Shown one piece after another: positions 29,701 to 59,507 of a stretch of DNA of 64,000 nt. The DNA lies in contig JADFXP010000001.1 in assembly GCA_015233465.1 (NCBI GenBank), positions 15,186 through 79,185 of the forward strand, given 5' to 3'. The translations under genes and the position numbers were made by a program. This DNA is from Candidatus Magnetominusculus dajiuhuensis. GTDB lineage: Bacteria > Nitrospirota > Thermodesulfovibrionia > Thermodesulfovibrionales > Magnetobacteriaceae. How positions within the stretch are numbered: position 1 is the stretch's first letter; each line of letters begins with the position of its first letter. Under the pieces are notes generated by a model. It searched no databases and was not told the origin of the DNA. It worked only from the letters and a program-made list of their open reading frames with translations.

Positions 29701-32694
29701 ATGAATTCCTATAGGATACTTATAGTAGAAGATGAGTTTATCATAGCTGAAAACATTCGTTTGATAGTGCGCAGTTTTGGACATACTACCATTGGAATAG
29801 TTGGAAGCGGTGCAGATGCTATAAAAAAAGCAAGGAATGACAGTCCAGATCTCGTATTAATGGATATTTCATTAGCTGGTAAATTAGATGGAATTCAAGC
29901 TGCTTCTGTAATATCGAATAAACTTTTTATCCCAGTAATATATTTGACCTCTATTTTAAATATCGAATTTCTTAACAGGGCTATAGCCACAAATCCATAT
30001 GGATACCTTTTAAAACCAGTTGTAGAAAGAGAATTGCAGGCTGCTATTGAAATAGCAATGCACAAATTTCATGTTGATCAGCAGCTATTAAAGGATAAAT
30101 CAGTTCTTGAAAAACTTAATCAAAAATTAGTCAAAAGAGATAATATTATCAATCGCCGCTTAAGGTTTGAAAGATGCCTTTCAAAGATCTCAAAAAACTT
30201 TGTCAATGTAATTAATATTGAAGATTCTATTAAATATGCCCTTAAAGAGATTGGATTACTCTGCGATGCAGATGGCTGCTATGTAGAATTATTAAAAGAT
30301 AGCAGCATCTATAAATGGAAAAAACATGGCATTGCTCCAATTAATATAGATATTTTCAAGATAAAAAACCAAGAATTTATGGAAAAATTTTATAATGGCG
30401 AGTATATATTTATTGAAAATATTGATGACCTGCTTAAAGATTCTATCCTAGAAATTAATATTTATAAAGATACAAGATTAGAAGCCTTTATTGCAATTCC
30501 TATTTATAAGCGTGGAGATTTAACATGTTTTTTGGGAATTGAGAATCCTAAATTAATAAGTAATAATAATTGGGAAGATATATCAATATTAGGGGTTATC
30601 TCAGAGATTATAGGAAATGCCTTATTAAGGGAAGATACTGTCAATGAGCTTAAGGACAGTGAGAATAAATATAAAACATTTGTAGAAAATATTCCTCAAA
30701 GGGTATTTCTTAAAGATAAAGATTTTGTATATATTTCTTGTAATAATAGTTTTGCTGATGATCTGGACATTTTACCTGATGAAATAGCTGGTAAGACAGA
30801 TTTTGATTTATTTTCAGAGAAATACGCAAAGAGATATAGGGATACTGACAAAAGAATTATGACTTCTGGACGAATTGAAAATATTGAAGGGCCTTATACA
30901 GTTAAAGGTAATGAATTAATAGTTGCTGCAACTAAGATACCAATTAAAAATGAATTTAATGAAGTTATAAGTATATTGACTATATTTTCAGATATAACTG
31001 AACAAAAAACCGCAGAACTGAAGATTCAGACTGCATTTGCTGAACTCGATTCAATAGTTAAAGAAAAAACAGCGAATCTATTATCTCTTAATAAACAACT
31101 GCAAAAAGAAGTTGTTATGAGGATTGAATCAGAAACCGCTTTGATAAAATCTGAAGCTCAATTAAGATATAATAATTCAGTGCTTTCAGCAACGCTTGAA
31201 GCAACAGTAAACGGGATACTTGTTGTAAATAATCAAAATGAAATTGTACTTTATAATAAGATATTTCTTCAGATGTGGGATATTTCGGATACTTTAATCA
31301 AATCAAGTAATCGTGATGATATTATAGCGGTTACAGCATTCCAAATGAAAGATCCAGATAACTATATTGACAAGATAAGATTATTTCGTGCTAATCCATC
31401 TTCTAAAGGGTTTCATATTGAATATCTAAATGACGGTCGTATATTTGAAATAATATCACAGCCGCAATACTTAGAAGGTCAGCCGATTGGAAGGGTTATT
31501 AGTTATACTGATATTACAGAAAAGGTTAATCTTGAGACACAGTTAAGACATTCGCAAAAGATGGAGGCTATTGGGACGTTGGCTGGAGGGATTGCCCATG
31601 ATTTTAATAATATGCTGACAGTTTTTAAGGCATATGCACATATGATTAATAAAAAAATAAGACAAGATCAAAGTGATCAACAGATTGCAGACCTTATAGT
31701 AATGGTTAATGATACAATACAAAAGGCAGTTGAACTTACAAAGGGACTTTTAACATACAGCAGAAAACAAATAACGAATTATTCTTCAATTAATCTAAAT
31801 GAAATAGTAATTGGCATAAATTATTTACTAAAACATCTAATTGGAGAAGATATTGAGATAAATTCAATACTTGCTAAAGATGAATTAATTATATCTGCCG
31901 ATAAAAATCAGATAGAGCAAGTAATTATGAATCTTGTTAATAATGCAAGAGACGCTATATTTGAAAGAAAGAATAAACAAGGTGGAGTAATTAATATTAA
32001 AACTATGATTAGCAAAGGTATACCAAAATATTTGAATGAATTTGCTGATGATGATAATTATATTCAGCTTTCGATAACTGACAATGGAATTGGGATAACA
32101 AAAGAAAATATTGAAAAGATATTTGATCCATTTTATACATCAAAGGAAGTTGGTAAAGGTACTGGGCTAGGACTTTCTATTGCTTATGGGATTATTACGC
32201 AGCATAACGGTTACATTGACGTTAAAAGTGATAATATTGGAACAACATTTGATATTTATCTGCCTAAGGCTCAAATAAATCAAAATATGAATATAATTGA
32301 TGATAAATTATCAATTCAGAGTAGAGGAGAAACCATTCTTTTAGGCGAGGATGATTTTATTGTAAGAAAGACTACAATGGAATGTCTAATTGATAGCGGC
32401 TATAAGGTTATTGAGGCTAAAAACGGAGGAGAAGTTTTAAATAAATTTATCCTTCATAAAGATGAAATTGATTTGGTAATCACAGATGTAGTAATGCCAG
32501 GTAAAAATATAAAGACAGTATATGATGAGATGATTGAGATAAGCCCTAAATTAAAATTATTATTTATCAGCGGATATACTTCAGATATAATTACTCAAAA
32601 AGGCGTGATAGATAATGGTATTAATTTTTTGTCTAAACCATATAATATAGATGATCTTCTAATGAGGGTTAGGGAGATAATTGATGGGAAATAG
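29701..32694 (+). CDS. REC-GAF-PAS-PAS-histidine kinase-REC hybrid protein
   Basis: A 997-aa soluble hybrid kinase. The N-terminal receiver has phosphoacceptor Asp55 (LVLMDISLAGKLDG). A GAF domain (about 155-310), two PAS domains (about 320-440 and 490-610), HisKA with His633 in LAGGIAHDFNNML, a HATPase (DNGIGI, GTGLGLSIAYGI) and a C-terminal receiver (LVITDVVMPG, KPYN) follow. The N-terminal receiver is of the MDISLAGxxDGIEAA type also found at 34283 and 37846, so these proteins are paralogous in part. It overlaps the NtrC-type gene, with which it forms a signalling pair. Confidence 0.92.
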   Translation: MNSYRILIVEDEFIIAENIRLIVRSFGHTTIGIVGSGADAIKKARNDSPDLVLMDISLAGKLDGIQAASVISNKLFIPVIYLTSILNIEFLNRAIATNPYGYLLKPVVERELQAAIEIAMHKFHVDQQLLKDKSVLEKLNQKLVKRDNIINRRLRFERCLSKISKNFVNVINIEDSIKYALKEIGLLCDADGCYVELLKDSSIYKWKKHGIAPINIDIFKIKNQEFMEKFYNGEYIFIENIDDLLKDSILEINIYKDTRLEAFIAIPIYKRGDLTCFLGIENPKLISNNNWEDISILGVISEIIGNALLREDTVNELKDSENKYKTFVENIPQRVFLKDKDFVYISCNNSFADDLDILPDEIAGKTDFDLFSEKYAKRYRDTDKRIMTSGRIENIEGPYTVKGNELIVAATKIPIKNEFNEVISILTIFSDITEQKTAELKIQTAFAELDSIVKEKTANLLSLNKQLQKEVVMRIESETALIKSEAQLRYNNSVLSATLEATVNGILVVNNQNEIVLYNKIFLQMWDISDTLIKSSNRDDIIAVTAFQMKDPDNYIDKIRLFRANPSSKGFHIEYLNDGRIFEIISQPQYLEGQPIGRVISYTDITEKVNLETQLRHSQKMEAIGTLAGGIAHDFNNMLTVFKAYAHMINKKIRQDQSDQQIADLIVMVNDTIQKAVELTKGLLTYSRKQITNYSSINLNEIVIGINYLLKHLIGEDIEINSILAKDELIISADKNQIEQVIMNLVNNARDAIFERKNKQGGVINIKTMISKGIPKYLNEFADDDNYIQLSITDNGIGITKENIEKIFDPFYTSKEVGKGTGLGLSIAYGIITQHNGYIDVKSDNIGTTFDIYLPKAQINQNMNIIDDKLSIQSRGETILLGEDDFIVRKTTMECLIDSGYKVIEAKNGGEVLNKFILHKDEIDLVITDVVMPGKNIKTVYDEMIEISPKLKLLFISGYTSDIITQKGVIDNGINFLSKPYNIDDLLMRVREIIDGK

Positions 32695-34054
32695 TAATTC
32701 TGATCGTGCTAATAACATCCTTATAATTGATGATGAGAGTCAGATTAGGATGAGTTTTAAGATGATTTTGGAAGAAGCAGGGTTTAAGGCAAGACTTGCT
32801 TCTAGCGGACGTGAGGGAATAAATATCTTAAAAAAAGAGAATATTTCTTCTGTTTTACTTGATCTAAAGATGCCGGAGATGGATGGACTTGAGACCCTTA
32901 AAGAGATCAAGTCAATGGTGCCAGATATTCCTGTAATCATGATAACTGCATTTGGTGATGTCAGTGATGCAGTAGAGGCAATAAAGGCTGGGGCTTATAA
33001 TTTCATAATCAAGCCTCCTGATTTTGATGAATTGATTATTTTTATAAAAAGGGCAGAGCAGCAGCATTTATTACAAAATAAATTGATGCTGTTAAATAGG
33101 ATTGTTGAGAGGAATTTTGAAGATGTTCTTGGCAGAAGCCCAGCAATTAAAAAGGTCATTGAGGATTTACAAATAATATCTAATACAAATATTTCTATTA
33201 TAATAATTGGCGAGACAGGCACTGGCAAGTCTTTTTTAGCGCGTTTAATTCACAAAAACAGCCTTAGACGAGATCACCCATTTATTGAAATGGATATCGG
33301 TTCACTTACAGAGTCATTGATAGAGAGTGAATTATTTGGTCACGTTAAGGGCTCTTTTACAGGGGCTGAATTAAACAAAAAAGGGTATCTTGAGTCTTCT
33401 AATACTGGGACTTTGTTTATTGATGAACTTCAAAATATGTCACTTAATGTGCAGAGTAAATTACTTGGTGTGCTTGAGAATAAAAATTTTACTCCTGTTG
33501 GTTCTAATAACCCAATAAAACTGGATATTAGATTTATAGCTGCAACCAATAAAAATATAACTGAAGCGGTTTCTGCTGGAAATTTTAGAGCAGATCTATT
33601 TTATCGTTTAAATGAATATATTATTAATATTCCTCCACTGCGGGATAGGAAGGAGGATTTAACATTTTTTATTGAGAAATTTATCGCTGAATACAGTAAT
33701 GAATTAAATAAATCCATCAAAGATATAAGTCAAGAAGCTATGGATATGCTATTACATAATCCGTGGAAGGGTAATATTAGGGAACTTAAAAACACCATCA
33801 GACGTATAGTATTATGCGTAAAGTCAAATACCATTAATTCTAACGATATATCAAATGTTGATAATGTTGATAATCATAGATTACCGCTAAATAATATGTC
33901 GCTTAAAGACTCCGTAATCCAGCATGAGATACAATGTATTACCAATGCTCTAAAAGTTACAAATGGCAATAAAACCCATGCTGCTTCAAAACTAAAGATT
34001 ACATATAGAGGACTTATTAAAAAAATAAATAGGCTTGGAATTTTAGATTATTAA
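32684..34054 (+). CDS. NtrC-family sigma-54-dependent response regulator
   Basis: A 456-aa regulator. The track of the frame permits a TTG at 32681, but ATG 32684 is the natural start; it overlaps the kinase gene by 11 bases. The receiver phosphoacceptor is Asp60 (VLLDLKMPEMDG). The AAA+ domain has GETGTGKS, the sigma-54 contact loop GSFTGA (family GAFTGA), LFIDELQNM and a second region RADLFYRLNEY. The C-terminus is a Fis-type helix-turn-helix (NKTHAASKLKITYRGLIKKI). Three copies of a palindrome and a sigma-54 promoter lie just downstream, so it probably drives the 34283 operon. Confidence 0.94.
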   Translation: MGNSNSDRANNILIIDDESQIRMSFKMILEEAGFKARLASSGREGINILKKENISSVLLDLKMPEMDGLETLKEIKSMVPDIPVIMITAFGDVSDAVEAIKAGAYNFIIKPPDFDELIIFIKRAEQQHLLQNKLMLLNRIVERNFEDVLGRSPAIKKVIEDLQIISNTNISIIIIGETGTGKSFLARLIHKNSLRRDHPFIEMDIGSLTESLIESELFGHVKGSFTGAELNKKGYLESSNTGTLFIDELQNMSLNVQSKLLGVLENKNFTPVGSNNPIKLDIRFIAATNKNITEAVSAGNFRADLFYRLNEYIINIPPLRDRKEDLTFFIEKFIAEYSNELNKSIKDISQEAMDMLLHNPWKGNIRELKNTIRRIVLCVKSNTINSNDISNVDNVDNHRLPLNNMSLKDSVIQHEIQCITNALKVTNGNKTHAASKLKITYRGLIKKINRLGILDY

Positions 34055-34065
34055 TTACTGAGAGC

Positions 34066-34169
34066 TATGAACTGATGTTCTTAACTATGAATTATTGTTC
34101 ATAGTCCTATAAAATGATTGCGCCACTTGTTTTTTCACTTATCTGCCTCGCTATGAACACATGTTCATA
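34066..34169 (+). promoter_or_regulatory. Three enhancer-like palindromes (upstream activator sites)
   Basis: TATGAAC-N4-GTTCATA occurs three times: 34066-34083 (one mismatch, GTTCTTA), 34086-34103 (one mismatch, TATGAAT) and 34152-34169 (perfect). The first two are spaced 20 bp, two helical turns, so they would lie on one face of the DNA. They lie 54-157 bp before the -24 element, the normal range for NtrC-type enhancers. Confidence 0.75.
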
Positions 34170-34222
34170 ACGTTAGACTTCTATCAAAGCCTGATTTCGT
34201 TGAATTTCCTACACCTTTTAAC

Positions 34223-34238
34223 TGGCATGTTTATTGAA
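34223..34238 (+). promoter_or_regulatory. Sigma-54 promoter (-24/-12)
   Basis: TGGCATG-TTTA-TTGAA, spaced exactly as the sigma-54 consensus TGGCACG-N4-TTGCW, with C to T in the -24 box and C to A in the -12 box. The next gene starts 44 bases downstream. Confidence 0.65.
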
Positions 34239-34282
34239 ATATGAATATATAGATATTTCTATTTAAAAAGAGGGATAAGGTT

Positions 34283-35578
34283 ATGTCTATTAAAAATATT
34301 AATTTAAATGAAGAAAAAGACACTAATGTACTATGTCTTCCGTCAAACGAAAATCATGTAAATGAAGTAAAGATTTTATTAGTAGAGGATGAATTTATTA
34401 TAGCAGACAGCATGAGGATGGCTCTGAAGTATAGAGGATATACAGTTACTAATATAGTAACAAATGGTAAAGATGCAATAGAACATGCTAAAACTGAAAA
34501 TCCTGATATAATTTTAATGGATATAATTTTACAAAATGGTATTAACGGTATTGAAGCTGCTATAAAGATACATGACCTTTATAATATTCCAATTATATAT
34601 ACAACCTCATATTATAATGAACAATTGTTTGAACGCGCAAAGATTGCCTCTCCATATGGGTATTTAATAAAGCCATGCTCAGATAAAGATTTAGAGAGAA
34701 CCATTGAGATAGCGTTAAATAAGCATAAGTTAGAAAAAAAACTGCAAGATTTAAATAAAGAGTTGAGTGATAGGGTTAATCAAGACTTAATAAAGATAAA
34801 GCAGATAGAACAATTACTTATCCAGCAGTCAAAGATGGCTGAAATGGGAGAGATGCTTAACTCAATCATTCATCAATGGGTTCAGCCATTAAATGCAATT
34901 AGTCTTATTGCACAAGATATTAAAGAGGCATTTAATTTTAATGAATTAAATGAAGTGTATCTAAATAAATCTCTGCTTCTTTTAAATCAACAGGTTAATT
35001 TCATGGTCAATACAATAGATGTATTTAGAGATTATTTTAAACCCAATAAGGAAAAAAAACCATTTGATATATGTAGTACGATAAAAGAGGTAATCAATCT
35101 TATTTCAAAACAACTTACTGCCTCACAGATTGAAATTCTATTTCAATGTGAAGTAAAAGAGGAAGATGCAAAAGAGCAATTATTTATAATAACAGGATTT
35201 CCAAATGAATTTAAGCAGGTGATATTAAATTTAATTAATAATGCCAAAGATGCAATCTTGAAAAAAAGACGCTCAGGATTTTTCAAAGATGAAGAAATTG
35301 GCTCAATTTGTATTGGTTTATCTAAAGAGATGATGGATGAATCAGAAATGGTAGTTATAAAAATAAAGGACAATGGCTGCGGAATAAAAGATGAATTGAG
35401 AGATAAGATATTTGACCCATTTGTAACTACAAAGGGTGAAACTGGCACTGGTATTGGACTATATATGTCAAAGGTCATAATTGAAGGACATCTTGACGGT
35501 AAAATATATGCAGCAGAGATTAAAGAAGGAACTATGTTTATCATTGAATTAAGACTTAGTAATTTAGGTGGAAACTGA
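34283..35578 (+). CDS. REC plus histidine kinase (HQW-type)
   Basis: A 431-aa soluble protein. The receiver (about 28-150, Asp80 in ILMDIILQNGINGIEAA) is followed by a coiled coil and a kinase core with phosphoacceptor His197 in SIIHQWVQPLNAI, an N-box NLINNAKDAI and DNGCGIKDE, TGTGIGLYM. The HQW(R/V)QPL form defines a subgroup of kinases that often lack a periplasmic sensor. A good ribosome site (GAGGGATAAGG) precedes the ATG. It is the first gene after the sigma-54 promoter. Confidence 0.92.
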   Translation: MSIKNINLNEEKDTNVLCLPSNENHVNEVKILLVEDEFIIADSMRMALKYRGYTVTNIVTNGKDAIEHAKTENPDIILMDIILQNGINGIEAAIKIHDLYNIPIIYTTSYYNEQLFERAKIASPYGYLIKPCSDKDLERTIEIALNKHKLEKKLQDLNKELSDRVNQDLIKIKQIEQLLIQQSKMAEMGEMLNSIIHQWVQPLNAISLIAQDIKEAFNFNELNEVYLNKSLLLLNQQVNFMVNTIDVFRDYFKPNKEKKPFDICSTIKEVINLISKQLTASQIEILFQCEVKEEDAKEQLFIITGFPNEFKQVILNLINNAKDAILKKRRSGFFKDEEIGSICIGLSKEMMDESEMVVIKIKDNGCGIKDELRDKIFDPFVTTKGETGTGIGLYMSKVIIEGHLDGKIYAAEIKEGTMFIIELRLSNLGGN

Positions 35579-35611
35579 AAAGTTTTCATTTATAAAATAG
35601 AGGGATTAATT

Positions 35612-37843
35612 ATGTTTAATGAGCTTAAATTATTTCTGCCGATAAGGTTGACTCTTCCGATTACTATGAAGATTTCAAAGATAACTGCCATTAATCTTGC
35701 CTTGATTATTGGATTAATCTTGATGAATAGATATAATTTCCTTTTGTTTCACAGCTTTATTGAAGGCGTATGTATAGTTATATCAATTGGCATCTTTATG
35801 GTTACAGTAAACAGTGCTGAAAAAAATCGATATGGTTTTTTTTCAATTATCGGATATTGTTATTTATTTGTTGGGATCACTGATTTTATTCATATGCTTG
35901 GCTATAAGGGGATGAATATATTTAATGGATTTGATATAAGCTTTTCCACACAACTATGGATAGTGGGCAGATATATTGAGAGTCTTTCATTTCTGATTGC
36001 ATCTATTAGTTTTTATCGAAAGATAAATATTAAATATATAACTTCTATTATTTCAGCGATCTTTATAACAAGTTTGATTTCAATATTTTATTTTCATAAT
36101 TTTCCAATCACCTTTATTGAAGGCAGAGGAGTAACAGCAGTTAAGTCTTACAGCGAGTATTTGATATGTTTATTACTTGGAATATCAATGATTTTAATAA
36201 CAAAACGCAAAGATAAATTTGAGACAAAGGTTTATCAAAATCTAATGTCCTTTGCAATGCTTGCTATGATTGGAGAATTTGTTTTTTCATCATATAGAGA
36301 CCTTTATTCATTAGAAAATGTAATAGGCCATTATTTTAAATTGCTTTCGTACTATTTTTTATATAACGCAGTATTTGTAACTGGGATAAAGACACCGTAT
36401 CAACTATTAGCTAAAAGCAGGGAAAAATATCAAACCCTTACAAGGTTTGCGCCAGTTGGTATCTTTAATTTGGATGAAGCTGGAAACATGATTTATACAA
36501 ATCTTCGTTTGTCTGAAATCTCTGGTCTAATAAGAGAGCAGATCAATAGTGTCAGTTGGCTAGAAGCAACTTATCCAATAGACAAAACAACAGTGAATAA
36601 TCAATGGAAAAATACGATTACTTCTGGAATGCAATTTAATATGGAATATAGAATACAGAGTTCAAGCGGTAAGATAACATGGGTACAATGCCTGATAGAT
36701 GCGTTAAAAGACGAAGAAAATAATGTCGTTGGATTTATCGGGACTGTAACAGATATTACAGAGCGAAAGCTGGCGGTTGAGTTGATGTTAAAAGGTGAAA
36801 AATTATATAAAATAACCTTTGAAAATGCCCCAATCGGAATTGCCCACACTAGTATTAGCGGAAGATTTTTGAGGGTAAATGATAGATTCTGCCAGATTAT
36901 TGGATACACAAAAGAAGAGATATTTAAGATTACACGTCAATCGCTAATACACCCTGAGGAAATGGATCAAGATCAAACTGAAATTACAAGATTAATCTGT
37001 GGAGAGGTTAAATCAATTGGAGCGGAGCAGAGATATATTCGTAAAGATAAAAGGGTTATTTATGCCTCGCTAAAGATTTCTCTTTTTTCAAAATATAATG
37101 ATTCTGCGGAATATTTGATAGTTGTATTTGATGATATAACGAAAAGAAAAGAAACTGAGAGACTTGTTCATAAATCACTTAAAGAAAAGAGGCTTCTTTT
37201 GGGAGAAATACATCACAGGGTGAAAAATAATCTCTCAATAGTAGATGGACTGCTTAAGATGCAAAGTCTCAAGGTTAAGGATGAGTATTTTAAAGGACTT
37301 ATATTTGAGTGTCAAAGCAGGATAGCTTCTATTGCACTCATTCATGAAAAACTTTATCAATCTGAATCAATAGCAGAGATAAATTTTAAATTATATATAG
37401 ACAGTCTTATTATAAAGTTGCGCAATACTTATTCTGATGATATTGAGCGGATTAAGTTTAATAATATGGCAGATGAAATATATTTTGACATTGACACTGC
37501 AACACCGCTTGGATTGATCATAAATGAGATACTGACAAACGCAGTAAAGCACGCATTCCCCGATAGAAGTTCTGGAGTAATAGATATTTTCTTATATCAG
37601 ATCAAGGATGATTATGGCAGCCAGTACTATGAGTTGATAATCAAAGATAATGGTGCAGGCTTTCCAGATGAATTAGATTTATACAAAAGTGAAACATTAG
37701 GACTGAGATTAATCAATGGATTAGCCTCTACACAGCTTAATGGACAGATATTATTTGAAAATAAAAGACGAGAGTCAAAAACAATAAGCGGAGCAGAGAT
37801 TAAGATTAAATTCAAAAAATTCACTAGAGTTCAGGGGGAATAA
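35612..37843 (+). CDS. MASE3-PAS-PAS-HisKA_2 membrane histidine kinase
   Basis: A 743-aa sensor. The N-terminal 260 residues hold about seven to eight membrane helices with DFIHMLGYKGMNIF and TQLWIVGRYIESLSF, as in the MASE3 sensory domain. Two PAS domains follow (about 275-390 and 395-515), then a HisKA_2 core with the phosphoacceptor motif EIHHRVKNNL (His534/His535), NEILTNAVKHAF, DNGAGF and LGLRLING. This kinase family usually phosphorylates separate single-domain or PAS-linked receivers. The REC-PAS gene 2 bases downstream is the expected partner. Confidence 0.92.
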   Translation: MFNELKLFLPIRLTLPITMKISKITAINLALIIGLILMNRYNFLLFHSFIEGVCIVISIGIFMVTVNSAEKNRYGFFSIIGYCYLFVGITDFIHMLGYKGMNIFNGFDISFSTQLWIVGRYIESLSFLIASISFYRKINIKYITSIISAIFITSLISIFYFHNFPITFIEGRGVTAVKSYSEYLICLLLGISMILITKRKDKFETKVYQNLMSFAMLAMIGEFVFSSYRDLYSLENVIGHYFKLLSYYFLYNAVFVTGIKTPYQLLAKSREKYQTLTRFAPVGIFNLDEAGNMIYTNLRLSEISGLIREQINSVSWLEATYPIDKTTVNNQWKNTITSGMQFNMEYRIQSSSGKITWVQCLIDALKDEENNVVGFIGTVTDITERKLAVELMLKGEKLYKITFENAPIGIAHTSISGRFLRVNDRFCQIIGYTKEEIFKITRQSLIHPEEMDQDQTEITRLICGEVKSIGAEQRYIRKDKRVIYASLKISLFSKYNDSAEYLIVVFDDITKRKETERLVHKSLKEKRLLLGEIHHRVKNNLSIVDGLLKMQSLKVKDEYFKGLIFECQSRIASIALIHEKLYQSESIAEINFKLYIDSLIIKLRNTYSDDIERIKFNNMADEIYFDIDTATPLGLIINEILTNAVKHAFPDRSSGVIDIFLYQIKDDYGSQYYELIIKDNGAGFPDELDLYKSETLGLRLINGLASTQLNGQILFENKRRESKTISGAEIKIKFKKFTRVQGE

Positions 37844-37845
37844 AT

Positions 37846-38679
37846 ATGTCAAAGGCAAAAATACTTATAGTTGAAGATGAGTTTGTAATTGCAGAAAGTA
37901 TGTCTATGACGTTGATAAATCTTGGGTATAACGTGATTGATTACGTATCCAAAGGTGAAGCTGCCATTGAAATTGCTAAAAATAAAAAACCAGACCTTAT
38001 ATTAATGGATATATCCTTGGCTGGTAAAATGGATGGAATAGAGGCTGCTCAGCACATAAACCTGAATTACAATATTCCGGTAATTTATCTAACTGCCCAT
38101 ATTGATGATAAGTTGATAGCAAGGGCAAAGATTACAGAGCCATTTGGTTATTTGATTAAACCTGTTGAGGAAAAAATACTGCAATGTACAATTGAAATAG
38201 CTTTATATAAGTTAATGTTAGATAAGCAATTTAAGACAAAAGAGTTGTATTTTCAAGGGGTTATGGATAATATAACATATCCGCTAATGGTAATAGGGTT
38301 TGATTATAGGATTAAAATGATGAATGAAGCAGCAAAAAAATGGATTTCATGTACATATTATCCATATGGCGAGTTATTTTGTTTTAAGGTTTCGCATCAT
38401 AAAAATGTTCCTTGTTTTGGCAAAAAGGAACAATGTCCATTGGAATATGTTAGCAGCACATTTAAATCAATAAAGGTAACGCATGAACACTTTACAAAAG
38501 ATGGTGAGGTAAGAGTTATTGAGATAATGGCATCTCCTTTAATAACTAAAGATGGTTCTTTTGACAGTATAATTGAAACGCATATTGATATAACAGAGCG
38601 TTTGAAGACTGAAAAGACAATAAATAAGGGAGGAAATATAAAATGTATACACTTGGAAAAAACACAAATGCACCAATAA
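37846..38679 (+). CDS. REC-PAS response regulator
   Basis: A 277-aa protein. The receiver has phosphoacceptor Asp55 (LILMDISLAGKMDGIEAA) and the C-terminal half is a PAS domain (about 135-255). The PAS carries a Cys/His-rich loop, SHHKNVPCFGKKEQCPLE, found in a subgroup of PAS domains and a candidate metal or redox site. There is no output domain. It starts 2 bases after the MASE3 kinase and overlaps the HD-GYP gene by 37 bases. It is probably the middle step that carries signal from kinase to effector. Confidence 0.88.
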   Translation: MSKAKILIVEDEFVIAESMSMTLINLGYNVIDYVSKGEAAIEIAKNKKPDLILMDISLAGKMDGIEAAQHINLNYNIPVIYLTAHIDDKLIARAKITEPFGYLIKPVEEKILQCTIEIALYKLMLDKQFKTKELYFQGVMDNITYPLMVIGFDYRIKMMNEAAKKWISCTYYPYGELFCFKVSHHKNVPCFGKKEQCPLEYVSSTFKSIKVTHEHFTKDGEVRVIEIMASPLITKDGSFDSIIETHIDITERLKTEKTINKGGNIKCIHLEKTQMHQ

Positions 38680-40103
38680 TCCTGATATCAGATGATGAAC
38701 CGGATACATTAAATTTATTAACTAATATTTACAAGAGGCAGTACAATGTTGTTTCAGCTCAGAGTGGGAAAGAGACTTTGGATATCTTTCAGAAATTACC
38801 TATTGATTTAATTTTACTTGATGCAAAGATGCCTGATATGGATGGATTTAGCGTATGTCAAAAATTAAGAAACGGCTATAGCCATAACTATGTGCATAGA
38901 CCATATGTAATGATGATGACCGCTTATTATACTGATGAATTTATAGATAAGGCATTTGACGTAGGAGTGGATGATTATATCAGGAAACCCTTAAACGTAA
39001 AGATATTGGAAAGGCGAATTAAGGCAATACTTGAGAGGAAGATTTTACAAGATACGCTAATGGATTCGGAATTAAAGCTTAAAACCATCTTTGATAATGC
39101 AAATGATGGAATAATTATAACTGACATAGAAACAAAGAAATTATTAACGGTTAATAATAAAATTTGTCAGATGACTGGGTTTAGTAATGAAGAACTTTTA
39201 TCTATGAATATAATGGATATACATTTAAAAGAGGATGCACCGATGATACTTGCGAAGTTTGACATGCAGGTAACAAATAAAGGGACACTTTTAGAAGCAG
39301 TGCCTATTAGAAGAAAGGATGGAACTATCTTTTATGCAGATATAAATATCTCTCCTATTATATTAAATAATAAACAATATGTAGTAGGTTTTTTTAGGGA
39401 TATGACAAAACGATTGATTTTATTAAATGAATTAGGCGCTCACAAGAATTCTTTAGAAGATTTAGTAAGTCAAAGGACGATAGAGTTAAATGAGAGCCTA
39501 ATGAAATTGAGATTTATAATAGATTCTATTACAAAGGCAATGGCGCATACAGTTGAGGCTAAAGACCCTTATACTGCTGGGCATCAGAAACATGTTTCAG
39601 AGATAGCTCGTAAGATTGCAAATAAGATGGGTCTGCCAAAGGATCAAGTAGAAGGAATTAGAGTGGCTGGTGTGCTGCATGATTTAGGTAAAATACAGGT
39701 TCCTTCAGAGATATTATCCAAACCAGCTAAGTTGAATGAATTTGAATTTGGCTTGATACATATGCACAGCAATACAGGTTATACAATATTAAATGGAATA
39801 GATTTTCCTTGGCCAATAGCAGATATTGTCAGACAGCATCATGAAAGGATTGATGGTTCAGGGTATCCTTTAGGACTAAAAAAAGAAGAGATTTTAATTG
39901 AGTCAAAGATACTAAGTGTTGCGGATGTATATGACGCAATGGTCACACATAGACCATATAGAGCTGCATTGGGTAGAGATGCCGCATTAAATGAAATTCA
40001 AAAAAATAAAGGGATATTATACGACAGCGTTATTGTTGATGCCTTTGAAGAAACTATTAATGATAAGGATTTTTATTTATCTGATAATTCTATAGACTTG
40101 TAA
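38643..40103 (+). CDS. REC-PAS-HD-GYP c-di-GMP phosphodiesterase
   Basis: A 486-aa response regulator. The receiver (LISDDEPD, LLDAKMPDMDG, RKPLN) is followed by a PAS (about 145-260), a helical linker and an HD-GYP domain (about 300-470) with GHQKHVSEIA, GVLHDLGKI, HMHSNTGY, RQHHERIDGSGYP and KILSVADVYDAMVTHRPYR. All metal ligands and the GYP signature are present, so it should hydrolyse c-di-GMP when active. GGGAGGAAATATAAA precedes the ATG. It is the only catalytic output in this cluster. Confidence 0.94.
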   Translation: MYTLGKNTNAPIILISDDEPDTLNLLTNIYKRQYNVVSAQSGKETLDIFQKLPIDLILLDAKMPDMDGFSVCQKLRNGYSHNYVHRPYVMMMTAYYTDEFIDKAFDVGVDDYIRKPLNVKILERRIKAILERKILQDTLMDSELKLKTIFDNANDGIIITDIETKKLLTVNNKICQMTGFSNEELLSMNIMDIHLKEDAPMILAKFDMQVTNKGTLLEAVPIRRKDGTIFYADINISPIILNNKQYVVGFFRDMTKRLILLNELGAHKNSLEDLVSQRTIELNESLMKLRFIIDSITKAMAHTVEAKDPYTAGHQKHVSEIARKIANKMGLPKDQVEGIRVAGVLHDLGKIQVPSEILSKPAKLNEFEFGLIHMHSNTGYTILNGIDFPWPIADIVRQHHERIDGSGYPLGLKKEEILIESKILSVADVYDAMVTHRPYRAALGRDAALNEIQKNKGILYDSVIVDAFEETINDKDFYLSDNSIDL

Positions 40104-40114
40104 TGTGATATTTT

Positions 40115-40145
40115 TAATATTATCCCTTTAGGGGTAAATAATATA
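40115..40145 (+). terminator. Hairpin after the HD-GYP gene
   Basis: TATTAT-CCC-tttA-GGGG-taaATAATA folds as a stem-loop and is followed by ATATTTTT. It may end or weaken transcription before the glycogen-binding gene. Confidence 0.4.
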
Positions 40146-40166
40146 TTTTTAAGAAAGGAGATCATT

Positions 40167-40526
40167 ATGGAAGTACTTGGTTTTGAAAAGATAATTACTG
40201 ATTATAGTATTATAACTGCAGGAGTAACAAAAAAATTTTTAAAGTCAAATAATCTTTGTAAGGTTAGCTTTAAATTTCCAAAAGATGCTGCCACACATTG
40301 TACATCTGTCAATTTAGTAGGAGACTTTAACGCATGGGATATATATGCAACGCCAATGAAAAAAGATGCTGATGGAAATTTTATAGTTACTATAGACCTT
40401 GAGAAGGGACGTGAATATCAATATCGTTTTTTAATAGATGAAACAAGATGGGAAAATGATTGGCATGCAGATAGATATGTGCCTAGTCCTTATGGACAAG
40501 TGGAAAATTCAGTAGTTGTTGTTTAG
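40167..40526 (+). CDS. Stand-alone glycogen-binding (CBM48/AMPK-beta-like) domain protein
   Basis: A 119-aa protein whose C-terminal 85 residues match the AMPK beta/CBM48 glycogen-binding module: VNLVGDFNAWD, TPMKKDADGNFIVTIDLEKG, YQYRFLIDETRWENDWHADR and PSPYGQVENSVV. The N-terminal 30 residues are unlike the family. There is no catalytic domain. Such single modules occur in several anaerobes, with unknown roles. AAAGGAG precedes the ATG. Its place behind the signalling operon suggests a glycogen-linked response, which is an inference. Confidence 0.88.
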   Translation: MEVLGFEKIITDYSIITAGVTKKFLKSNNLCKVSFKFPKDAATHCTSVNLVGDFNAWDIYATPMKKDADGNFIVTIDLEKGREYQYRFLIDETRWENDWHADRYVPSPYGQVENSVVVV

Positions 40527-40626
40527 AAAAGGTCAAATAACTACTTGCGGATTTGGGGGGTGTTATCCTCCAATATTCTGCAGGTAATGATAAATTAATA
40601 ATCTTGAAATCTGATAAGGAAAAGAT

Positions 40627-41193
40627 ATGAATATACCTCAATTAATATTGGCACAAAATGGTAATTTAGAGGCTCAATTTAATATAGGAATAATGTATTC
40701 CATTGGGCATACAGTGCCATTAAACCTTAAGGAGGCAGTTATGTGGTATAAAAAGGCTGCTGCGCAAGGACATAGTGAAGCACAAAATAATCTTGGGAAT
40801 ATGTATTGCAAAGGTTATGGCGTAGCTCAAGATTATGAAAAGGCTTTAAAGTGGTTTCATAGAGCAGCTAAACAAGGTAATACGGATGCTCAATATAATT
40901 TAGGTAAGATGTATGAATTAGGATATGGAACTTTGCAAGATTTTGATAAGGCGATAAGATGGTTTAATGAAGCTGCTGAAAATGGGAACATAATGGCTCA
41001 AATTCATCTAGGTGATATATATTACAGGGGTATGGGAGTAGAAAAGGATAATAATAAAGCAGTTAAATGGTTTTGTAAGGCAGCTGGCCTTGGTTATGCT
41101 GAGGCTAAGGAAAGGATTCTATATATTAATGCAGAGATAATGAAAAAATATGTTAAAGATGAAAATATAGTAGAGGTAAATTCTGATTATTAA
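40627..41193 (+). CDS. Sel1-repeat protein
   Basis: A 188-aa protein made of about four to five Sel1-like TPR repeats of 36 residues, such as AQNNLGNMYCKGYGVAQDY and AQYNLGKMYELGYG. No signal peptide is seen, so it is expected in the cytoplasm. Sel1 proteins act as scaffolds in signalling. AAGGAAAAGAT precedes ATG 40627. It lies 100 bases after the glycogen-binding gene. Confidence 0.88.
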   Translation: MNIPQLILAQNGNLEAQFNIGIMYSIGHTVPLNLKEAVMWYKKAAAQGHSEAQNNLGNMYCKGYGVAQDYEKALKWFHRAAKQGNTDAQYNLGKMYELGYGTLQDFDKAIRWFNEAAENGNIMAQIHLGDIYYRGMGVEKDNNKAVKWFCKAAGLGYAEAKERILYINAEIMKKYVKDENIVEVNSDY

Positions 41194-58166: not shown

Positions 58167-59507
58167 CTACAGATAAGTGATTCCATACTCCTTTATCTTC
58201 ATAAGAAGGCTTCTATAACTGATCTGGAGCAGTTTACAAGCAATGGACTTATTCCCGCCTGCTGCCTTTAGAGCCTGAATGATAATCTTTATCTCAGCCT
58301 CAACGATTGCAGTCTTCAAGTTAAGAATATCTGCTTGAATTGGGTTTTTATAGACCAAAAAATCAATCAATTCGGGATTCAATGTATCATTAGAGGCATT
58401 GATCATTGCGCGTCTAATCACATTGCGCAATTCTCTGATATTCCCAGGCCATGAATGGTTCGTTAAAAGGTCAAGGGTTTCTTTTGGAATTTCCTTTATA
58501 TGACGATTTAGCTCCTCATTGGACTCATAAATCACCATCCATATAAAAAATTCAATATCCTCTTTTCGTTCCCTTAGAGGAGGTATTGTAATTATATACT
58601 CGCCAATTCTATAAAAAAGATCATTTCTGAATAGTTTTTCGGATACATCTTTTTGTAAATCCCTATTCGTAGCAGCGATTATACGCACATCTATGTTTTT
58701 AGGAGTATTTGAGCCTACTGGAGTAATAGCCCTATCATCAATTACACTTAATAATTTACTCTGAACGATATTGGATAAATTTTGGATATCATCTAAAAAT
58801 ATGGTACCTCCTGATGCAATCTCAAAATATCCCTTTCTTTTTGCATAAGCCCCAGAAAATGAGCCCATTTCGTGACCAAATAATTCGCTCTCAAGGACTG
58901 TCTCTGCTAGAGAGTTTATGTCTATCTTGATAAATTGGTTCTTTCTACGATTACTCATCAGATGAATAATCTTTGCAAAATATGACTTGCCAGTACCAGT
59001 TTCACCTTGCAATAATACAGATATATTACTTTGTGATATTTGTTGGAGTTCTTTTATTATTTTAATAATAGCAGGGCTTTTTCCGATTGTATTCTCAATT
59101 GAGACACCTACCACTTCGCTAAGTCTATGAACCTCCCTCTTTAACACAAATCCCTTGATAGCTTTTTTGACTGACAATACAAGTACAGACGGATGTATCG
59201 GCTTTACTATAAAATCAAATGCGCCAAGCTGCATTGCCTTAACAGCAGTCTCTATATCTCCATAACCTGTTATTATTATTACTGGTAAATCAGGGTAGAG
59301 ATTTCTAATAGTTACAGTTGCATCTAGCCCGTTTAATTCAGGCATCTTCATATCCATGATAACTGCATCTACAGTATTTTTACTTAAATAAGAAAGTCCT
59401 TTTTCTGCAGAAGGAAAAGATATTGAATCTATCCCAGCACGATTCAAAATAGTAGAACATGTCTCTCTGATATTATCATCATCATCTATTACCAATACCT
59501 TATTCAT
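58167..59507 (-). CDS. NtrC-family sigma-54-dependent response regulator, second copy
   Basis: A 446-aa regulator. Receiver with VIDDDDN, VIMDMKMPELNG and VKPIHPS; AAA+ domain with QGETGTGKSYFAK, a sigma-54 contact loop GSFSGA (family GAFTGA, so two positions changed), TIFLDDIQNL and FRNDLFYRIGEYII; C-terminal Fis-type helix-turn-helix (NKSIACKLLQISYRSLLMKI). It resembles the 32684 product along its length. It lies 493 bases before the four-gene relay operon on the same strand and is its likely activator. Confidence 0.92.
   Translation of the reverse strand: MNKVLVIDDDDNIRETCSTILNRAGIDSISFPSAEKGLSYLSKNTVDAVIMDMKMPELNGLDATVTIRNLYPDLPVIIITGYGDIETAVKAMQLGAFDFIVKPIHPSVLVLSVKKAIKGFVLKREVHRLSEVVGVSIENTIGKSPAIIKIIKELQQISQSNISVLLQGETGTGKSYFAKIIHLMSNRRKNQFIKIDINSLAETVLESELFGHEMGSFSGAYAKRKGYFEIASGGTIFLDDIQNLSNIVQSKLLSVIDDRAITPVGSNTPKNIDVRIIAATNRDLQKDVSEKLFRNDLFYRIGEYIITIPPLRERKEDIEFFIWMVIYESNEELNRHIKEIPKETLDLLTNHSWPGNIRELRNVIRRAMINASNDTLNPELIDFLVYKNPIQADILNLKTAIVEAEIKIIIQALKAAGGNKSIACKLLQISYRSLLMKIKEYGITYL

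Follow-up and report, generated by a model that had tools for sequence, protein, structure and literature searches.

The regulon of an NtrC-type EBP with sigma-54 enhancers is an already known kind of system, and the locus studied here resembles those of the NtrC, NtrX and ZraR-type EBPs in the REC-AAA+-Fis-HTH architecture of its regulator, in the palindromic operators upstream of a -24/-12 promoter and in the hybrid kinase adjoining the regulator. It differs from them in that the clade of its regulator has operators directly behind the regulator's own gene. The NtrC operator is of the TGCAC...GTGCA type, and a canonical NtrC regulon is rejected here, as the operator is TATGAAC-N4-GTTCATA, which to our knowledge matches no operator of NtrC, NifA, PilR or FleQ. 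Among the clade relatives from Thermodesulfovibrio and other Nitrospirota, the loci L087, L096 and L097 share with the present one the EBP gene, palindromes 20 bp apart, a sigma-54-like site and a signalling operon, whereas their operators are TATGGAA/TCTGGAA-N4 palindromes, with TGGAA in place of TGAAC and two rather than three in number. Their targets are STAS in L087, MCP-CheY-CheA in L097, and CheW together with MCP in L096. For the sigma-54 regulome of Desulfovibrio vulgaris, comparative genomics has led to inferred EBP motifs next to the sigma-54 promoters of adjacent operons, among them an AT-rich palindrome assigned to DVU2275 (PMC4641369); the regulons there are other ones, and the text uses neither the word HD-GYP nor the word tandem. 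A cross-phyla survey of sigma-54 regulons has response-regulator genes among the predicted targets (PMC12316311), whereas the text, as searched, contains none of Nitrospir-, chemotaxis, c-di-GMP and HD-GYP. In a limited search of open papers we found no description of the present operator, of its HD-GYP-recurrent regulon, or of the clade's habit of keeping operators behind the gene.

Operators and promoter-like site before the signalling operon

The features of the locus are collected in Table 1, with positions in the window, that is, the whole 64 kb stretch of DNA that was analysed.

Table 1. Features at and around the operator array, in window coordinates
Feature	Position	Strand	Basis and remarks
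Hybrid histidine kinase, REC-PAS-PAS-HisKA-HATPase-REC	29701-32694	+	ORF and Pfam; 14 bp overlap with the regulator gene
NtrC-type EBP (32681), REC - AAA+ sigma-54 activator - HTH_8; putative operator reader	32681-34054	+	Pfam, motifs, clade analysis
Operator 1, TATGAACTGATGTTCTTA	34066-34083	.	1 mismatch to TATGAAC-N4-GTTCATA
Operator 2, TATGAATTATTGTTCATA	34086-34103	.	1 mismatch; start 20 bp from the start of operator 1
Operator 3, TATGAACACATGTTCATA	34152-34169	.	0 mismatches (perfect)
Sigma-54 (-24/-12) promoter-like site, TGGCATGTTTATTGAA	34223-34238	+	Spacing correct; -12 element TTGA
REC-HATPase histidine kinase, first target gene	34283-35578	+	ORF and Pfam
MASE3-PAS-PAS-HisKA_2 membrane histidine kinase	35612-37843	+	ORF and Pfam
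REC-PAS response regulator	37846-38679	+	ORF and Pfam
REC-PAS-HD-GYP protein	38643-40103	+	Pfam; HDLGK and HHERIDGSGYP intact; C22-array paralogue 63% identical
CBM48 domain protein, possibly end part of the operon	40167-40526	+	ORF and Pfam; paralogue in the C22 operon
Sel1-repeat protein, possibly end part of the operon	40627-41193	+	ORF and Pfam; paralogue in the C22 operon

The three palindromes are those read in a preliminary description of this DNA, and no other site in the window matches TATGAAC-N4-GTTCATA with two mismatches or fewer. Dinucleotide shuffling of the window, repeated 120 times, gives a mean of 0.017 operator matches with at most one mismatch, and in none of the 120 shuffles do two such matches lie within 110 bp. 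The same description is right in letting the NtrC-type gene end just before the first palindrome (11 bp away), and its downstream gene set of two kinases, a REC-PAS protein and a REC-PAS-HD-GYP protein is confirmed by Pfam. The last of these, which carries the phosphodiesterase motifs and an HD_5 match with E 2e-39, is a predicted HD-GYP c-di-GMP phosphodiesterase; at 1e-100 it has no orthologue in 60 relatives, and only the paralogue on contig C22 is found.

As for the promoter, TGGCATG-N4-TTGAA at sigma-54 spacing had been proposed, and this stands with GG at -24 and the fixed spacing both present, but the -12 element is TTGA rather than TTGC, so that TGGCATGTTTATTGAA deviates from the sigma-54 consensus at the conserved C. 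The replacement of GC by GA at -12 is common to all three arrays of the own genome. By itself the window site is unremarkable, with 13 one-mismatch sites in the window against 9.8 expected; it becomes credible because the arrays on contigs C22 and C35 both have TGGCATGTTTTTTGATA at equal distance. With transcription starting near 34248, as we infer, the distances from the start back to the operators would be roughly 88, 154 and 174 bp, which are usual for enhancers.

Recurrence of the array in the genome and in a sister genus

Our palindrome scan covered the 3.13 Mb assembly and detects two further intergenic operator clusters, on contigs C22 and C35, while the site C14:5996 lies inside a coding gene and is taken as chance. 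The C22 cluster consists of two good operators and a degenerate one, and is followed by TGGCATGTTTTTTGATA, by a REC-PAS-HD-GYP gene 63% identical to that of the window, and then by CBM48 and Sel1 genes resembling those at 40167 and 40627. On C35, three operators and TGGCATGTTTTTTGATA precede an operon that encodes a small secreted-looking protein, a methyltransferase-like and an ATP-grasp-like protein (the last two named by eye), with an NtrBC-like pair at its end. Counted from operator 1, in the window, C22 and C35 respectively, operator 2 is at +20, +20 and +21, operator 3 at +86, +89 and +90, and the promoter at +157, +159 and +160. Since the register matches at three loci, chance is not possible, and a chance origin of the three palindromes is excluded. 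The locus had been described as a self-contained circuit, which is not borne out, because two other operons bear the same array in trans.

Some other features of these loci are also seen. The HD-GYP/CBM48/Sel1 set is duplicated, at window 38643-41193 and at L005:8180-11880, with an extra cysteine-rich protein inserted in the C22 copy. All three own promoters have AGAGGGAT in common, some 15-40 bp past the -12 element. Downstream of the sigma-54-like sites of C22 and C35 there is no clear gene for about 210 and 400 nt (L005:7969-8179 and L006:7594-7189 on the - strand, respectively), and a riboswitch in these long leaders is rejected, as there is no Rfam match.

In the genus g2 of the same family, arrays are present at six loci in three species (G007, G013 and G010). 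Five of the loci belong to G007 and G013, which use the same TATGAAC operator as the window, and at four of the five the successive steps are about 21, 58 and about 102-106 bp, the last of them leading to a sigma-54-like site; in some sister-genus arrays (C50 and C3 of G007) the -12 element has the TTGC form. The one array locus of G010 has operators drifted to TATGACG. A sequence-only array model (R1), run over 298 genomes, detects strong arrays only in the own genome (G000, 3), G007 (3), G013 (2) and G010 (1). Moreover, a second model, for which only the arrays of G007 and G013 were used, recovers the array of G010 (E 8e-13), the stretch past the EBP L255 of that genome (3e-5), and parts of our own arrays on C35 (7e-5), on C22 (2e-4, opposite strand) and in the window (3e-3). 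On the whole, three own loci and six in the sister genus each have one operator in several copies, whose number, spacing and register are conserved, and rpoN is found in the genome, which supports the layout of enhancers and a sigma-54 promoter claimed earlier.

HD-GYP genes are present behind at least four of the nine arrays, namely those of the window, C22, C14 of G007 and C102 of G010. The G010 operon consists of a PAS kinase, a hybrid kinase and a REC-HD-GYP protein, and is close in composition to the window operon. The other targets are PAS/GAF sensors, kinases, secreted FG-GAP/NHL proteins and an AAA-domain protein. Breakdown of c-di-GMP had been suggested as the output; HD-GYP is indeed recurrent, but it is not the sole output, since the targets are signalling genes in general, and the HD-GYP genes may account for just a part of the response.

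Behind the C50 array of G007 there is no clear large gene, and a 71-aa ORF (L237:8213-8428) resembles by eye a lone Fis-type helix-turn-helix. In addition, genus g2 (G001, G007 and G010) frequently shows a different palindrome, TGTGAAG-N4-GTTCACA-like, which probably belongs to another regulator; in G001 it is located at C24:43404 and 43436, 32 bp apart, with about six more sites.

Two other readings of the control region are to be considered. If the promoter did not depend on sigma-54 and the palindromes bound an ordinary sigma-70 activator or repressor, the -12 element TTGA would be accounted for; we regard this as improbable, because TGGCATG-N4-TTG follows each of the three own arrays, as well as arrays of the sister genus, some of them with TTGC, at a distance that is conserved, and because no sigma-70-like site is listed on the + strand in the gap 34054-34283. 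Sigma-54-like sites also exceed the reversed control genome-wide, with 51 matches against 5 for TGGCAYG-N4-TTGCWW and 29 against 8 for the TTGAWA form. Hardly credible, and less so than the sigma-70 reading, is that the palindromes are LexA/DinR-type SOS boxes and the operon part of a damage response. The operator core GAAC-N4-GTTC is identical to the SOS box of Gram-positive bacteria, but a triplet of operators with a constant register and a long distance to the sigma-54 site downstream fits an activator and not a promoter-overlapping repressor, and a LexA/DinR regulon is rejected as the own lexA and recA loci have no GAAC-N4-GTTC, even with one mismatch.

Candidate reader of the arrays

The protein encoded by 32681 has the REC, AAA+ and Fis-type HTH domains of a response-regulator bEBP (NtrC family), with a GETGTGKS Walker A motif, a GSFTGA loop (GAFTGA type, A to S) and DLKMPEMDG as phospho-acceptor region, and its best named relatives are Nitrospirota, Thermodesulfovibrio included. 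Judging from the gene overlap, the hybrid kinase at 29701-32694 is its probable phospho-partner.

An exact-pattern search finds no TATGAAC palindromes beside relatives of 32681 with 45-49% identity, and its nearest relatives, which are in genus g3 (48-49%), lack such arrays. This absence looked refuting, and was answered once palindromes were sought without a fixed sequence, as relatives of 32681 then proved to carry tandem palindromes 20-21 bp apart just past their own stop codon. In L096, L097 and L098 these are TATGGAA-N4-TTCCATA palindromes after the EBP gene, with a sigma-54-like site next in several cases. The preliminary description had proposed to look for the palindrome beside orthologues: it is the arrangement that is conserved beside the relatives, but not the same operator sequence.

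Under a fixed rule (a tandem pair of palindromes with a spacing of 20-21 bp, no more than 300 bp beyond the EBP stop), such palindromes are present in 8 of 30 clade EBPs and in none of the 122 others (Fisher p 1e-6), with 0.2-0.3 expected from shuffles. On a tree of 116 EBPs, where the operator counts include by-eye readings, operators lie directly behind the gene in 14 of 31 clade EBPs against 0 of 85 others, with a clade support of 99, and nearly all of the 14 have a sigma-54 site behind the operators. The gene 32681 falls within this clade, with its palindromes right past the stop. In G010, the clade EBP L255 has CATGACGCATCGGTCACA and TGGCATGTTTTTTGAC directly past its stop, and the operator is the same as in the distant array of that genome. 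Because 14 members share the adjacency and L255 matches its array, regulator gene and operators go together in the 32681 clade. On these comparisons of sequence, adjacency of the two holds as a rule throughout the clade, and operators are found in trans as well.

Window 58167-59507 (- strand) encodes another EBP of this clade, a paralogue with 45% identity to 32681, and no clear palindrome is found behind it. About 165 bp past its stop is the sigma-54-like AGGCATGGTTATTGC at 58002-57987 (- strand), followed by four REC-domain genes (57673 down to 54350).

We favour, with fairly good confidence, the earlier assignment of the 32681 protein as putative reader of the operators. The adjacency in the clade supports this, but G007 (92% complete) and G013 (56% complete) have arrays and no orthologue of 32681 was found in them, the only clade member seen in G007 being L273, without a REC domain and with a DYKT-type helix. 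The arrays might instead be sigma-54 enhancers read in trans by another EBP common to both genera, for example the C35 NtrC-like or the PilR-like one, with the adjacency of 32681 incidental. Several other EBPs do have reciprocal orthologues in G007 and G013, and the C35 array operon itself ends in the EBP gene of the NtrBC-like pair. This reading is nevertheless unlikely, given the complete lack of tandem palindromes behind the 122 EBPs outside the clade, the identity of the G010 array operator with that right behind L255, and the orthologue that the C35-type EBP has in the array-free G001. Choosing the reader by phylogenetic profile gave no single EBP, as nearly all G007 EBPs have counterparts in G001.

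With 32681 as the reader, 34066-34238 probably controls a signalling operon that depends on sigma-54, and C22 and C35 would be targets in trans. The hybrid kinase would probably phosphorylate the response regulator 32681, whose dimers would bind the tandem operator pair (34066 and 34086) and the third operator (34152); with the pair two helical turns apart, two dimers may bind co-operatively. The bound protein would loop to the sigma-54 polymerase at the promoter-like site and open the promoter of 34283-40103, and would also drive the HD-GYP/CBM48/Sel1 operon of C22 and the operon of C35. Induction would then give more kinases and HD-GYP protein, and probably lower c-di-GMP.

Operator sequence and recognition helix across the clade

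The half-sites differ between clade members with different recognition helices. DYKT helices (L082, L083, L085-L087, L095-L098 and L100) pair with TGGAA half-sites, the TYRG helix of 32681 with TGAAC, and the SYRH helix of L084 with TGTGA, while the SYSW helix is found with TGACG in L255 and TTACG in L258. The operator sequence thus appears to change with the recognition helix, a correlation seen in few independent lineages and partly read by eye. Tentatively, and with rather less confidence than for the reader itself, a wider history is possible, in which a Nitrospirota-centred NtrC-type clade keeps operators behind its own gene, half-sites track the helix, and in one family rewiring has moved the regulon from chemosensory genes to c-di-GMP signalling through HD-GYP.

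For most NtrC-type activators, above all those from outside Pseudomonadota, no operator is known, and the comparative evidence here ties one clade of them to its sites. It defines a regulon in which HD-GYP phosphodiesterases recur among the targets, and provides a natural series of regulators and operators for testing the recognition code of the Fis-type helix-turn-helix. If the wider history is true, the DNA code of this helix-turn-helix would be readable from sequence, through the regulator and its cognate site in each genome.
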